The position numbers and the translations under genes are program-made. Below, piece after piece: positions 152 to 41,337 of a DNA stretch of 58,583 nt (its first letter is position 1; every line of letters starts with the position of its first letter). This DNA is from an uncultured Oscillospiraceae bacterium (GTDB lineage: Bacteria; Bacillota; Clostridia; Oscillospirales; Oscillospiraceae): assembly GCA_947625845.1 (NCBI GenBank), contig CANQQB010000006.1, positions 1-58,583 of the forward strand, given 5' to 3'. A model generated the notes under the pieces. That model was given only the letters and a program-made list of their open reading frames with translations, made no database searches and was not told the DNA's origin.

Positions 152-508
152 ATAAACGAGTTTTCCTGTAAGCCGGATTCTGTTAAAAATGGCCATCTAT
201 CTAGGCGCGGCGTTGCCGCAGCGCTCCAGCCACCTCCCCGGGGGAGCCGGGCCGGCCTATTCCCCCTCCACGGTGTTGCTCCGGATAGAGTTTACAGCAG
301 CGGTCTGTCGCCAGGCCGCCGGGTGGTCTCTTACACCGCCTTTCCACCCTTACCGCGCGGAGAAACACGCGGCGGTCTGTTTCTGTTGCACTCGTCCTGA
401 TGTCGCCATCGGCGGGCGTTACCCGTTATCCTTGCCCTGTGGAGCCCGGACTTTCCTCACGCACAGCCTTTCGGCTCGTGCCCGCGGCCATTGAGAGAAC
501 TCGTTCAT
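152..508 (-). ncRNA. rnpB: RNase P RNA (bacterial)
   Basis: This is the catalytic RNA of ribonuclease P, which removes tRNA 5' leaders. On the minus strand the conserved core GAGGAAAGTCCGGGCTCC (about 462-445) lies near the 5' end and the matching AGAATCCGGCTTA segment (about 183-171) near the 3' end. The outer P1 helix forms between AACGAGTT at 505-498 and AACTCGTT at 162-155, which sets the boundaries to within a few bases. The GTGCAACAGAAA and GTGGAAAGGCGG-type internal segments are also present. It lies 20 bases after the yebC stop and ends in a clean intrinsic terminator; no separate promoter is obvious, so it may share yebC's. Confidence 0.93.
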
Positions 509-22039: not shown

Positions 22040-22129
22040 ATCCATCCTCAACATATCCGCCGAATTTGTCCCATATAGTGGATTATAACCATTTTGCGCG
22101 TTTTCCGCAAGGGTATGGGAGGGATCGGC

Positions 22130-23626
22130 TTGCTGCGGGACAGGACCCTGGCCTTCAACACGGCGCTGCTCACCGCCTCCGGGCTTGTCATGCGGTTCGT
22201 GGGCATGATCTGGCAGGTGTGGCTGGTGAGCCGCATTGGCGAGGCCGGCATCGGGCTTTTTCAGCTGGTCATGAGCGTGAACGCCCTGGCCGTGACGGTG
22301 GCCATGTCGGGCAGCCGCTACGCCGTCACCCGCCTGGTCAGCGAGGAACGGGGCCTGGACAGGCCGAACGGTGCGGCACAGGCGTTGGGCGAGACCATGC
22401 TCTACGGCCTCTTCTTCGGCCTGGCTGCCGGGCTCATCCTCATGCTCACGGCGGAGCCCCTGGGCTTTCTCTGGCTGGAGGATGCCCGGACCGTGCGGCC
22501 ATTGTTTATATTGGCCCTCACCATGCCGCTGACCGGCCTGGATTCGGTCATGCACGGGTACTTCACCGCCGTGGGCCGGGTGTGGAAGAGCGTGACCGTG
22601 TCCGTGTGCCAGCAGCTTCTGACCATCGGCGTGACCGCGTGCATCCTGCTGGTCGGGCCTGCGGCAAATCTGGAATTTGCCGTGGCCGGCATCACCGCCG
22701 GCGCGCTGGTGGGCGAGAGCTTCGGTCTGGCAGCGCTTGGCGTCGCCTACGCCATCGACAGGCGAAAGCACGGCATCGTCCGGGATAAGACCATCCCGCC
22801 TGTGGCGGGCATGACAAGGCGGCTTCTGACCATTGCCCTGCCGCTGGCCGCGGCGTCCTATGCCAGAAGCGGCCTTTCCACCCTCCAGCACCTGTTGGTG
22901 CCGCGAGGCCTTCGTTCCTCCGGTCTCACGGCGGAGCGTGCTCTGGCCGGGTACGGGGTCATCCAGGGGATGGCGCTGCCAGTGGTGCTGTTCCCCTCCT
23001 GCCTGATGATGGCCGTGGCGGAGCTCATCGTGCCAAAGCTCACCGAGCGGCAGATGCGCGGCCAGACCGACTCCATCCGCCAGGTGACGGAGGACGTGCT
23101 GTGGAAAAGTCTGCTTTTCTGCTCCATCACCGCCAGCCTCTTTTTGTCCCTGGGGGACAGTCTGGGCCTTGCCCTTTACGACTCCCCCCAAGCCGGGCGA
23201 TACATTCAAATTTTCGCCTGCATCGTGCCGGTCATGTACATGGATATGGCGGCGGACGGGTGCCTGAAGGGCCTGGGCGAGATGATGTTCTGCATGGTGG
23301 TCAACATTGCGGACGTGGGCCTTTCCGCGCTCATGGTGTGGCTGCTGCTGCCCCGGTGGGGGCTGGGTGCCTATATCTTCGTCATATGCTTCACGGAGGT
23401 GTTCAACTTCGCGCTGAGCATGTGGCGGCTTTGGAGAGTCTCCGGTGTGCGTCTTCCCTGGCGGCGGGTATTATTCGCGGCGCTGGCGGCGGTCATAAGC
23501 GGCGCGCTTTCCCGGCTTCTGGGCAGGTTCACCGGCGCGGACGGCAGCGTATGGGCGATGGCACTTTCCATGATGGCGGGACTGGGGCTCTACACCCTGG
23601 CCCTGCGCGGGCGCTTCGACCTTTGA
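22130..23626 (+). CDS. SpoVB/MATE-like polysaccharide flippase family protein
   Basis: About 498 residues with roughly 14 hydrophobic spans, matching the MOP-superfamily SpoVB group (lipid-linked precursor flippases; SpoVB acts in spore cortex synthesis). Typical features are the LLTASGLVMRFVGM first helix and the GVIQGMALPVVLFPSCLMMAVAELIVP-type seventh-eighth region with its family proline. A TTG at 22130 is taken as start because GGGAGGG lies six bases before it; an ATG at 22115 and a TTG at 22094 are in frame but lack a ribosome-binding site. Substrate unknown; spore cortex precursor is possible. Confidence 0.85.
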   Translation: MLRDRTLAFNTALLTASGLVMRFVGMIWQVWLVSRIGEAGIGLFQLVMSVNALAVTVAMSGSRYAVTRLVSEERGLDRPNGAAQALGETMLYGLFFGLAAGLILMLTAEPLGFLWLEDARTVRPLFILALTMPLTGLDSVMHGYFTAVGRVWKSVTVSVCQQLLTIGVTACILLVGPAANLEFAVAGITAGALVGESFGLAALGVAYAIDRRKHGIVRDKTIPPVAGMTRRLLTIALPLAAASYARSGLSTLQHLLVPRGLRSSGLTAERALAGYGVIQGMALPVVLFPSCLMMAVAELIVPKLTERQMRGQTDSIRQVTEDVLWKSLLFCSITASLFLSLGDSLGLALYDSPQAGRYIQIFACIVPVMYMDMAADGCLKGLGEMMFCMVVNIADVGLSALMVWLLLPRWGLGAYIFVICFTEVFNFALSMWRLWRVSGVRLPWRRVLFAALAAVISGALSRLLGRFTGADGSVWAMALSMMAGLGLYTLALRGRFDL

Positions 23627-29630: not shown

Positions 29631-31556
29631 TTATTTCTTGTACGTGATGCTGTTGCTGGCTTTGTAGGGGCTCAGCAGAGTCTTTTTGTCGTTCTCACAG
29701 CAGCGGACCGTGAACATATACGTCACATTATTTTTCAAATACTTCGCCGCTCTGGTGTAACTTGTCGCCGTGGTGGTGCCTATCTTCTTCCAACCGCCGT
29801 TGCCTTCTTTATAGTACACCATGTACCTTGGCGACCCGGTGACCTTATTCCAAGTGACCTTGATACCCCCGGCCACCTTGGCGATCTTCACGGTCGGCGC
29901 GGCGAGTTGAGCGGTGTACTTGAGGCTATTACTCGCCTTATACAGCCCAAGGAGCGTTTTCTTGTCGTTTGCGCAGCAGCGGACGGTGAAGGTGTAGGTC
30001 ACGCCGTTTTTCAAATTGGCCGCCTTGCGCGTATAGGTCGTGCTGGTGGTCGTCCCGATTTTCTTCCAACTACCGTTGCCCTCTTTGTAGTAGACCATAT
30101 ACCGCGGCGAGCCAGCGACCTTATTCCAGCTAACCTTAATGCCCGTAGAAACCTTTTCGATCTTCACCGTCGGCGCAGCCAATTGCGGCTTAGGCGTGGC
30201 CGTGGGTTCGGGCGTAAGCACAGGCGTGGGCTCAGGCGTTGGCTCCGCCGTGGGCTCGGGGGTGGGCTCTGCCGTGGGCACCGGCGTGGGTTCGGGTGTA
30301 GGCTCCGCTGTGGGCTCAGGGGTGTTCGTGGGTCTGGGGGTATTAGGTATAGGCGTATGTGCGGGTGTTGCTGTTGGCTCCGGCGTGGGGTTAGAATCGA
30401 TGGATCGGAACGTATAGCCGTATATTGCAGCATGCGTCTGGGCCGTAGAACCGTTGTGACCTTGGATGACCGTGGTCGCGGGATAACCCAGCGTATACCT
30501 GGTGTATCCATCAAGGGAAATAGGATTCGCAATGACGCAATTCTGGTTCAGCACCGTCAGGCTTGTCAGCGCCTCGCAGCCATAAAACGCTTCCGCGCCT
30601 ATGTTGGTCACACTGTTCGGAATCGTCACGCTCGTCAGCGCCATACAGTAGATAAACGCTTCCGCGCCTATGTTGGTAACACTGTTCGGGATCGTCACGC
30701 TGGTCAACGACGTGCAGGCCCCAAACGCACCTTCCCCAATGCTGGTTACACTATTCGGGATTGTCACATTGGTGTCAGACCCCTGGTATTGCAGAAGAAC
30801 ACCATGGTAGATCGCAAAATCACCTTGTGCCTCCAGCCAAGGTGTGGCAGAAAACGCAAGGCTCCCTATGCTGATCGCGCTCTCCGGGAGGGTCACACTG
30901 GTCAGGGATGTGCAGTCAGAAAACGCCCCCTGCCCTATGCTGGTCACGCTGTTCGGAATCGTCACGCTAGTCAACGACGTGCACTTCCAAAACGCGATGG
31001 TCCCGATGCTGATCACACTTTCCGGGATCGTCACGCCGGTCAACGACGTGCAGGTCCCAAACGCGCCGCTGCCGATGCTGATAACACCGCTTTGGATGGT
31101 GAGGTCAGCCAGCGAGTGGCAGTCCTCAAAAGCGCCGGAGCCGATGGTTTGTACGCTGCCGGGGATGGTGGCGCTAACCAGCGAGTAGTAATCTCTGAAC
31201 GCATTTTCGCCGATGTAGGTCACGCCGTCGTTGATGACCACCGAGGTGATAGTATCCGGCCATGGCGTCAAGTAATAATCTGGGTCATACTCGTAATCGC
31301 TCATAGGGCCTGTGCCGGAGATGGTCAGGGCGGTACCATTCACCTCCCAGGTCAGGCCATCGCTGGTGGTGCCGGACGTGGCCGCCGCGGGCTCCGGTTC
31401 CGCTACTTCCTCCACTACTTCCTCCGGTTCAATGACCGGTTCCTCCGTCACAACGGGTTCTTCCGCCGTGACCGGTTCTTCCTCCGCGAACGCTGGAACG
31501 CTCAGCGAAAAGAGCGTCGCCAGCGCCAGGAGCATACATAGACCGCGCTTTGCCAT
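29631..31556 (-). CDS. BspA-like leucine-rich repeat surface protein with paired C-terminal Fn3-like domains
   Basis: A 641-residue secreted protein. Signal peptide 1-25 (ends VPAFA), an acidic EEPV-rich segment (to about 65), a short beta domain (GLTWEVNGTALTISGTG, about 70-90), then LRR_5/BspA repeats of the 'LTSVTIPNSVTSIGxxAF' type (about 105-375). A long Pro-Thr-Glu linker (about 395-465) leads to two near-identical Fn3-like domains of about 87 residues, each with the PRYMVYYKEGNG and VRCC motifs. No LPXTG, SLH or wall-binding motif is seen, so attachment is unknown. BspA-type proteins are often adhesins; that role is inference. It is preceded by the structured RNA at 31583-31841. Confidence 0.85.
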   Translation of the reverse strand: MAKRGLCMLLALATLFSLSVPAFAEEEPVTAEEPVVTEEPVIEPEEVVEEVAEPEPAAATSGTTSDGLTWEVNGTALTISGTGPMSDYEYDPDYYLTPWPDTITSVVINDGVTYIGENAFRDYYSLVSATIPGSVQTIGSGAFEDCHSLADLTIQSGVISIGSGAFGTCTSLTGVTIPESVISIGTIAFWKCTSLTSVTIPNSVTSIGQGAFSDCTSLTSVTLPESAISIGSLAFSATPWLEAQGDFAIYHGVLLQYQGSDTNVTIPNSVTSIGEGAFGACTSLTSVTIPNSVTNIGAEAFIYCMALTSVTIPNSVTNIGAEAFYGCEALTSLTVLNQNCVIANPISLDGYTRYTLGYPATTVIQGHNGSTAQTHAAIYGYTFRSIDSNPTPEPTATPAHTPIPNTPRPTNTPEPTAEPTPEPTPVPTAEPTPEPTAEPTPEPTPVLTPEPTATPKPQLAAPTVKIEKVSTGIKVSWNKVAGSPRYMVYYKEGNGSWKKIGTTTSTTYTRKAANLKNGVTYTFTVRCCANDKKTLLGLYKASNSLKYTAQLAAPTVKIAKVAGGIKVTWNKVTGSPRYMVYYKEGNGGWKKIGTTTATSYTRAAKYLKNNVTYMFTVRCCENDKKTLLSPYKASNSITYKK

Positions 31557-31582
31557 GCTTTCATACCGTTCCTTTCTTAAAT

Positions 31583-31841
31583 TGTTTCCCGGCAGTCAGG
31601 CCCGGAGCGGGTTTTGCCCACTCCGTGGCCCTTCCACCGGGATAAACAAAAGACGGCGCAGGGAAACTTCCCTACACCGTGGAACGACAGCACGACCCCA
31701 ATATAACCCGTCCTTGTAAAAACAAATGGTTACGGTTATAATGGGTCCGGCGCAGTAATCCTGCTGTGTGGGAGGTGTGGCTCCTGCATAGGGGCGTGGA
31801 GGACGGCCATCCTTCACGTCCCGCCTTTTGTTTACCTCGTA
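31583..31841 (-). ncRNA. Long structured RNA (about 260 nt) in the leader of the leucine-rich protein gene; possibly raiA-like
   Basis: On the minus strand this stretch has its own promoter and folds into successive helices: GGACG/CGTCC within GGCG/CGCC near the 5' end; GGAG/CTCC; a long rod whose outer arms are CCCACACAGCA and TGCTGT...GTGTAGGG, whose middle is GGACCC/GGGGTC and whose tip is TATAACC/GGTTATA; and a 3' hairpin CCCGG...GGCC...GAG-GGG/CCC-CTC...GGCC...CCGGG. No protein-like reading is convincing and there is no terminator before the gene. Size and multi-helix layout recall large Firmicute RNAs such as raiA, but this was not confirmed. Ends are approximate. Confidence 0.5.
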
Positions 31842-31846
31842 TCCTT

Positions 31847-31875
31847 ATTGTAGCGCATTATTGCACGCAACGCAA
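31847..31875 (-). promoter_or_regulatory. Promoter of the structured RNA / leucine-rich protein transcript
   Basis: Minus-strand TTGCGT (31875-31870), 17-base spacer and TACAAT (31852-31847). The predicted start is near 31840, about 285 bases before the protein start codon. Confidence 0.6.
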
Positions 31876-31878
31876 GCA

Positions 31879-31911
31879 TAAAAATCGGCAGGACCCGAAA
31901 AACGGGTCCTG
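31879..31911 (-). terminator. Intrinsic terminator of xerD
   Basis: CAGGACCCG and CGGGTCCTG pair around five T on the minus strand; ATTTTTATG follows three bases later. The plus-strand side also has TCTTTTT, so it can work in both directions. Confidence 0.75.
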
Positions 31912-31917
31912 TCTTTT

Positions 31918-32808
31918 TCACGCCCTGGGGTGGGCTTTGACGTACACGTCCTTGAGCTGCTTTTTCACAAGCTGGGAATAGATCTGCGTGGAGCTGATGT
32001 CCGCGTGGCCCAGCATCTCCTGGATGGAGCGCAGGTCCGCGCCGTTTTCCAGCAAATGGGTGGCGAAGCTGTGACGGAGCGTATGGGGTGTGATGTCCTT
32101 TTCGATGCCGGCCTTCTGCTGATAGCTCTTGACGATTTTCCAGAACCCCTGGCGGCTCATGCGCTCGCCGCTGACGTTGACGAACAGAGCCCGCTCCCCC
32201 GGCGTGGCCAGCATCTCCGGCCGGATGAACTCCACGTAATCCTTCAGCGCCTTGATGGCCTTGGGGTACAGCGGGATGGCCCGGACCTTGTTCCGCCCCC
32301 GGCAGTTGATGATGCCGGCGGACAGGTTCAGGTCCGTCACGTCCAGACCGATAAGCTCGCTGACCCGGATGCCCGTTGCGTACAGAAGCTCCAGCATGGC
32401 ACGGTCCCGATAGCCCTTGCGGTCGCTGCACTGGGGTTGTGCCAGCAGCAGCTCCACCTCCTGGGCCGTCAGTATCTCCGGCAGCTTGTGCGTGGCCTTG
32501 TCCGGCACCAGCTTGCCGGTGGGGTTCGTCTCCACATAGCCGCGCTGCACCATCCAGACATAGAAGTTTTTCAGCGACGCAATGCTGCGGGAGACCGTCG
32601 CCACCGATTTGCCCGCCTGGCGCAGGTGGTCGATGTAACCGCACAGATCGTCCTCGTCCGCAGTAACATAATCGACGCCATCCGCCTCTATGTACTCGCC
32701 GAATTGCCGCACGTCCCGGAGATAGGAGCTGAGCGTGTTTTTCGACGCCCGCTTCTCGTCCGTGAGATAGCGCTCATACCCGCTCAGGCATTCTGCATTC
32801 GTCACCAT
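31918..32808 (-). CDS. xerD: XerD-type tyrosine site-specific recombinase
   Basis: A 296-residue recombinase that resolves chromosome dimers at dif. An N-terminal SAM-like core-binding domain (about 8-90) precedes the catalytic domain with Arg (TGIRVSEL, about 148), HTLRHSFATH (about 241-250; His and Arg) and GHADISSTQIY (about 265-275; His and the nucleophilic Tyr). The ATG at 32808 is used because AGGAG is seven bases upstream; a GTG at 32814 is too close to it. No phage or integron genes accompany it, so a housekeeping Xer role is likely. Confidence 0.92.
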   Translation of the reverse strand: MVTNAECLSGYERYLTDEKRASKNTLSSYLRDVRQFGEYIEADGVDYVTADEDDLCGYIDHLRQAGKSVATVSRSIASLKNFYVWMVQRGYVETNPTGKLVPDKATHKLPEILTAQEVELLLAQPQCSDRKGYRDRAMLELLYATGIRVSELIGLDVTDLNLSAGIINCRGRNKVRAIPLYPKAIKALKDYVEFIRPEMLATPGERALFVNVSGERMSRQGFWKIVKSYQQKAGIEKDITPHTLRHSFATHLLENGADLRSIQEMLGHADISSTQIYSQLVKKQLKDVYVKAHPRA

Positions 32809-32849
32809 GGTCACGCTCCTTACGCATGCTTAACATAATCAGTGACCAT

Positions 32850-41261: not shown

Positions 41262-41337
41262 GGACGATTGGCGCAGCTGGTAGCGCATCCGCTTGACGTG
41301 CGGGAGGTCACAAGTTCGAGTCTTGTATCGTCCACCA
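41262..41337 (+). tRNA. tRNA-Val (anticodon GAC)
   Basis: 76 bases with acceptor stem GGACGAT/ATCGTCC, discriminator A and encoded CCA (41335-41337). The D arm is GGCGCAGCTGGTAGCGC-like, the anticodon loop TTGACGT presents GAC, and the T arm contains GTTCGAG. It reads valine codon GUC and, by wobble, GUU. Single tRNA with its own promoter and terminator. Confidence 0.95.

Follow-up and report, generated by a model that had tools for sequence, protein, structure and literature searches.

The window, a stretch of 58,583 nucleotides of contig CANQQB010000006.1 from an uncultured Oscillospiraceae bacterium, raises the question of what kind of element occupies the segment of nearly 260 nucleotides that separates a promoter from a gene for a surface protein. 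A preliminary description had read this segment as a structured RNA with its own promoter, and had offered a large RNA such as raiA or a cis-acting leader of the surface-protein gene as candidate identities. The parts of the locus are given below; the helices follow one another, 5' to 3', as P1 (joining the ends of the core), P2, P3, P4h, the P4 arm, P5 and P6, with the Shine-Dalgarno sequence thereafter.

31918-32814, minus strand: tyrosine-recombinase-like gene, ending just upstream of the leader promoter, whose product we take to be XerC/XerD-like
31887..31913, listed on both strands: terminator-like hairpin, 3' of the upstream tyrosine-recombinase-like gene
31847..31875, minus strand: promoter, TTGCGT (31875-31870), 17-nt spacer and TACAAT (31852-31847), read from the sequence
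31581..31840, minus strand: structured leader RNA, the whole element P1-P6, about 260 nt
31642..31838, minus strand: conserved core, recognised with 158.7 bits (E 4.2e-41) by covariance model R2, a model whose training set of 62 sequences already included the window core (as L039)
31643..31834, minus strand: P1, in which 31834-31825 pairs with 31652-31643 (strand-swap test, 82 members)
31792..31822, minus strand: P2 hairpin, with strong covariation
31771..31784, minus strand: P3 hairpin GGAG/CTCC, 3' of the highly conserved CCCTATGCA
31752..31764, minus strand: P4h hairpin GCAG/CTGC, from alignment and covariation
31737..31742, minus strand: near-invariant ATTATA segment inside the longer P4 arm
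31653..31680, minus strand: P5 hairpin, followed by a U-rich run; terminator-like (97% of cells paired, 62 members)
31588..31641, minus strand: P6, the GC-rich 3' hairpin, sharing nucleotides of its 5' arm with the end of P1
31571..31575, minus strand: likely Shine-Dalgarno sequence AAAGG
29631..31556, minus strand: gene for a BspA-type LRR protein of 641 aa (LRR_5 E 2.5e-73)

The promoter, the nested helices and the GC-rich 3' hairpin of the preliminary description are thus all present, the helices in the predicted fold; a stricter promoter scan omitted the window promoter, whose -35 box matches 3 of 6 bases only. The downstream gene had been taken to encode a secreted leucine-rich protein, which agrees with its LRR domains and with a signal peptide, judged from its sequence; the protein has the signal-peptide-like start MAKRGLCMLLALATLFSLSVPAFA, a Pro/Thr-rich linker and fibronectin-like repeats. 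A sequence resembling the hairpin at 31887..31913 also precedes some of the other close leader copies in the same genome. The core model also matches 22049-22132 (plus strand) weakly and in part (13.5 bits, E 0.018), probably by chance.

The first matter to be decided was whether the segment is a structured RNA at all. Folding of the window stretch 31845-31570 gave -130.4 kcal/mol, with a z-score of -7.65 and none of 200 shuffles equally good, and the median z-score across 83 members of the family was -6.65 (20 shuffles per member). The covariation, promoter and z-score analyses were performed on these 83 of 103 members, namely those below 85% identity, the 103-leader set excluding the truncated L105 and L115 and two reverse-strand matches; the alignment used for covariation (A5) holds 62 of 79 eligible members. 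In a structure of 49 pairs, 86.3% of the cells are paired, as against 39.8-53.7% with slid partners, a comparison that favours the real version since the structure was drawn on the same 62-sequence alignment. Changes on both sides are found in 37 of the 49 pairs, amounting to 342 cells, compared with 115 (sd 8) after shuffling and 54-103 with slid partners. On this alignment pairing reaches 86-97% in P2, P3, P4h and P5, all of which show compensatory changes, and 72-73% in P1 and the P4 arm. Against a tree-based null, calculated with a purpose-written script in R-scape style rather than R-scape itself, six pairs are significant, all inside or directly extending P2, P3, P4h or P5, and three of them have at least 80% standard pairs. 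The fold withstands the kind of covariation analysis that the preliminary description had proposed. P1, being poorly aligned by MAFFT, was examined without alignment by strand swapping, whereby a member's own strands gave stronger pairing than strands borrowed from other members (47 of 82 members in the best tenth; median rank 0.09). The ACAGCA/TGCTGT collar that had been described stands in part: the ACAC/GTGT columns do pair (86% of cells, with zero pairs changed on both sides, in 62 members), but the GCA portion belongs to the separate GCAG/CTGC hairpin, which is 92% paired and covarying in the same 62 members.

A protein-coding reading was considered and rejected. Of the 103 members, 25 keep the 73-aa frame across the element free of stops up to its end, and 50 have its start codon in place; the earlier remark that the translation is not protein-like is borne out by a frame so poorly kept. 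It is virtually certain that the element, one of 16 copies in its genome, is a conserved structured RNA.

The RNA was then compared with known families. Neither in the window nor at 40 relative loci did any Rfam 15 family score at threshold on the element; the threshold matches lie elsewhere and comprise RNase P, tRNAs and a skipping-rope RNA, those of the window itself being a class A RNase P RNA at 153-503 (minus strand) and a tRNA at 41262-41334 (plus strand). The skipping-rope RNA (RF02924) is situated at L298:2666-2749, near a distant leader and at a separate place. Sub-threshold matches are weak and include miRNA families, sX7, cyano_tmRNA and whalefall-1. The raiA candidate was rejected: RF03072 gives no match at E<=10 in 31450-32000 and none in the whole genome, while the same model does detect raiA in the class, in 17 of 99 genomes with one match each. 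Two raiA sequences from those 17 genomes, read directly, are unlike the element, and the resemblance is limited to size and host group. A divergent raiA or another known Rfam RNA is a most improbable identity. No description of the leader was met in the titles and abstract openings listed by the literature search, nor in term searches within two motif-discovery papers (PMC11109978 and PMC8632094).

The element belongs to a family, with several copies in its own genome. DNA searches of its own genome gave 15 matches, the window copy included, and the covariance model gave 15 strong copies and one weaker, divergent copy, i.e. 16 in total; reverse-strand matches in this search are palindrome artefacts. 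In the larger searches, copies per genome are lower bounds, because only 6-21 candidates per genome were scored when more than 40 genomes were searched. In the Oscillospiraceae the model (E<=0.001) is positive in 78 of the 300 genomes searched, representing 40 of the 106 genera sampled. A model of the core, trained on 62 diverse members, is positive in 57 of 394 genomes of the order, 21 of 391 of the class and 7 of 299 of the phylum (the seven comprising the own genome and at least one false positive). All of these tallies, that for the family included, are slightly high because the weak matches include false ones: L333, from its letters, reads as a tRNA on the opposite strand, and L294, L297 and L303-L305 are doubtful. 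The element is sparser outside the Oscillospiraceae. Among the matches listed, named records carrying the exact pattern are mostly uncultured Oscillospiraceae, the others being Flavonifractor sp. An82 and An10, Flintibacter muris, Oscillibacter and Pseudoflavonifractor. A mobile or phage origin was also considered and set aside, phage and plasmid records being without a match and viral contigs giving two matches with one pattern and none with another.

The promoter is a regular part of the family. A TTG/-10 pair lies within 75 nt upstream in 81 of the 83 non-redundant members (window copy included), compared with a shuffle mean of 7.6; the spacing is 17 nt in 74 of them and the -10 box lies 21-23 nt from one anchor in 58, so that the position of the promoter is kept in most members. 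At the other end of the core, P5 and the U-rich run after it look like an intrinsic terminator, with at least five T in nine nucleotides in 81 of 83 members. The preliminary statement that no terminator intervenes before the gene is therefore to be qualified. A terminator-like hairpin with a U-run before the gene is the arrangement of a transcription attenuator, the terminator here being a predicted one.

These same features could be read as those of a stand-alone, trans-acting small RNA of about 200 nt, terminated at P5 and the U-run, with the downstream gene expressed by read-through. Its own promoter, the terminator-like hairpin and the 16 genomic copies are all in keeping with such an RNA, and a few members (L148, L147 and L074 among them) have no clear ORF nearby. 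However, start codons close after the RNA suggest a constraint in cis, the class of downstream genes is biased, and in some distant relatives a P1-linked sequestration of the Shine-Dalgarno sequence, described below, would be sensible only in cis. A trans-acting RNA is accordingly judged unlikely.

The downstream genes bear on the function of the element. A protein with a signal peptide, called by a simple rule of hydrophobicity and charge rather than by SignalP, is next in 75 of the 103 leaders, compared with 4 of 22 control ORFs, which were taken mechanically from the window with a minimum length of 150 aa; it is also next to 15 of the 16 copies in the own genome. Its start codon lies at a median of 24 nt past the RNA, and within 46 nt in 65 of the 75 signal-peptide members, although the picking rule favours near starts. 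The 28 downstream ORFs that fail the rule include at least one that was mis-picked and some that look cytosolic. A Pfam scan was performed on 83 of the 103 proteins, excluding seven own-genome paralogues, L063 (frame mis-picked), five proteins below 50 aa and seven ORFs taken as mis-picked, all of which fail the signal-peptide rule. SLH domains, the commonest downstream class, were found in 24 and LRR_5 in 23 of these proteins, and, among the 25 of 45 domain families listed, the copper amine oxidase N-terminal domain in five, with transglutaminase, CAP, NPCBM, VanY, lipase and SH3 domains in one or two proteins each. Exceptions in the scan are an acyltransferase and an ABC transporter; a protein that we take to be PH-like and some presumably double-glycine-like peptides are further exceptions, and a Pfam search with the PH-like protein and a double-glycine-like peptide gave no match. 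Signal-peptide proteins were also seen by eye to be next in other families of the order (L275, L280, L283, L285, L324, L325), and in two genomes outside the class (G1238, G1214) the core precedes LRR-like surface proteins.

Some smaller downstream products also recur. A protein of about 50-90 aa beginning MVDYxKMYxxLFN, a further exception to the export pattern, is found behind the leader at seven loci in several genomes (L083, L106, L108, L123, L133, L135, L150), and neither of the two members scanned has a Pfam match. At L114:1185-1364 and L117:908-1078 the leaders precede short peptides with the double-glycine-like leader LDDxVLEAVSGGE, which we take to be perhaps exported peptides or bacteriocin precursors; that of L114 is without a Pfam match.

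The downstream genes are thus mostly exported yet non-homologous, and the reading as a cis-acting leader, one of the two originally proposed, is strongly supported because the RNA recurs close before non-homologous genes for exported proteins; we regard it as very probable. It might be argued that the leader is a passive passenger, copied together with promoter and signal peptide as a gene family expanded, or retained as a recombination anchor. Within the window's own genome, the paralogues of the LRR gene mostly share the signal peptide MAKRGLCxLLALxTxFSLxxPAFAEE while their mature domains vary (LRR, transglutaminase-like and others). The sharing of leader and, mostly, signal peptide between the copies of one genome would suit a passenger, as would the upstream hairpin that several have in common, but elsewhere the RNA persists, with compensatory changes, in front of unrelated genes, a covariation that disfavours this reading, and the eight genomic DNA matches closest to the window copy are 78-88% identical to it. 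A mere passenger is very improbable.

If the leader acts in cis, the question becomes whether it switches. As its 3' strand P1 uses the U-run that follows P5, continuing into the 5' arm of P6, and this strand may be available to more than one partner. Riboswitches with translational expression platforms generally have a core closed by a P1 helix and an anti-Shine-Dalgarno hairpin. At 19 loci from four other families (genomes G324, G845, G1001, G884, G357, G757, G843, G824, G758 and G902), picked by eye for showing this layout, a hairpin after the core buries the Shine-Dalgarno sequence, and the burying strand is the 3' strand of P1. Energies were calculated for 16 of the 19, three near-identical loci being omitted: the Shine-Dalgarno sequence is fully paired in all 16, and in 15 of these chosen loci some of its partners lie within P1, which as modelled makes P1 and this hairpin mutually exclusive. 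The two alternatives mostly differ little in energy (e.g. -16.0 and -15.8 kcal/mol), and the three strands co-vary between loci, as in AGGG/CCCTCC/GGAGGG, GAGG/CCTCTC/GAGAGG, AGGGG/CCCCTCC/GGAGGGG and AAGG/CCTTTC/GAAAGG. Further related loci agree with the layout in 9 of 11 cases, the set including L352, a wrongly cut repeat of L301 (0/6), and the unreadable L353. Inspection by eye of 18 of the 19 loci also suggested a pseudoknot in these distant relatives between GGC/GNYGC after P1 and GCC/GCRAC after P4h. As modelled, the layout of the distant set is that of a translational riboswitch in which P1 would be the on state, and control of translation by P1 in this set is considered quite likely.

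The genes following this set encode mostly small proteins, together with a SymE-like and a recombinase-like protein, and not surface proteins. In one distant family (L300, L315) a SymE-type protein follows the RNA (PF08845, E 2.9e-12, for the L300 protein). The layout was not seen by eye at other distant loci, including six of G1019, L289, L332 and others. The six core matches of G1019 (L291, L316-L320) carry insertions in the core, and four of them precede XRE-type regulators, as read from the ORFs.

The situation in the Oscillospiraceae was examined at 51 non-redundant loci having a signal peptide, a start within 60 nt and a recognisable Shine-Dalgarno sequence. Here, as in the window, the 3' strand of P1 is shared with the downstream P6 hairpin, in which a median of 13 of its 15 nucleotides find partners as well, and this strand sharing has no consistent effect on the Shine-Dalgarno sequence, whose modelled mean accessibility barely shifts with P1 (0.59 to 0.65); changes above 0.2 are gains in 10 loci and losses in 7. 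The downstream segment is folded at about -36 to -63 kcal/mol, compared with -10 to -29 for P1. Sequestration of the Shine-Dalgarno sequence is thus unsupported as a general mechanism in this family, and the two-state switch is not simply transferable to it, because accessibility barely shifts and the downstream fold outweighs P1. P5 and its U-run make attenuation an equally good predicted output in the Oscillospiraceae. A switch of some kind in the window's own clade is held to be somewhat favoured.

A constitutive role, in which the leader stabilises highly expressed surface-protein mRNAs or enhances their translation without any switching, would accord with the predominance of SLH genes downstream, the conserved promoter and the very stable fold. 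The conserved loops and the covarying multibranch fold would, in our estimation, exceed the needs of such an element, and the balanced, mutually exclusive P1 and Shine-Dalgarno hairpins of the distant set argue against it. This role is somewhat less improbable than that of a trans-acting RNA, though still unlikely.

The reading that we prefer, and consider probable, is that of a family of promoter-driven, cis-acting regulatory leaders outside Rfam 15, consisting of P1-P5 (about 200 nt) and a 3' hairpin and fused to genes for exported proteins; it is possibly an orphan riboswitch class. In such a leader P1 would be the switching helix: when the core is stable, P1 would form and take the strand downstream of P5, and when the core is unstable, that strand would pair into the downstream hairpin instead. 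In the distant loci this hairpin would bury the Shine-Dalgarno sequence, so that translation would be on with P1 formed, and in the Oscillospiraceae the candidate outputs are attenuation at P5 and the U-run, translation, or mRNA stability. The signal stabilising the core would most likely be one that coordinates the surface proteome. More tentatively, at somewhat below even chances, the element may be an orphan riboswitch of several clostridial families, responding to one intracellular signal common to its copies and switching the proteins that gut Oscillospiraceae display or secrete, its core being reused in other families before small regulatory or mobile-like genes. A small-molecule ligand of the leader is given about the same chances. 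A widespread RNA class outside Rfam 15 could explain how some gut bacteria coordinate many surface proteins, and the strand shared by P1 and the anti-Shine-Dalgarno hairpin provides a directly testable candidate switch. Should a ligand be bound, the family would represent a large new riboswitch class; failing that, it would stand as a leader of a new kind on mRNAs of exported proteins.

Among the known systems, the long stabilising leaders of S-layer mRNAs likewise precede surface-layer genes; here, in contrast, one covarying fold spans genera and unrelated genes. The c-di-GMP-I riboswitch (RF01051) has surface and motility genes among its targets and is, like the present element, a class of leader before surface-protein genes, but the latter is without an Rfam match at threshold; RF01051 was found nowhere in the own genome, in a search that is weak since the control genomes were equally silent. 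The raiA motif/ModT RNA is also a structured clostridial RNA of about 200 nt, but it differs in sequence and is reported to act in trans (Lence et al. 2024, PMC11706538). In general architecture there is a likeness to the translational riboswitches, with which the family shares a P1-closed multibranch core, conserved loops, a position in the 5' leader and, in a set of distant members, a strand common to P1 and the anti-Shine-Dalgarno hairpin; it differs from them in its core of about 200 nt, in its own terminator-like P5, and in target genes that share export rather than a pathway. With a conserved, covarying, aptamer-like fold in the 5' leader, the element appears to act like a regulatory leader and, as modelled in some clades, like a riboswitch.
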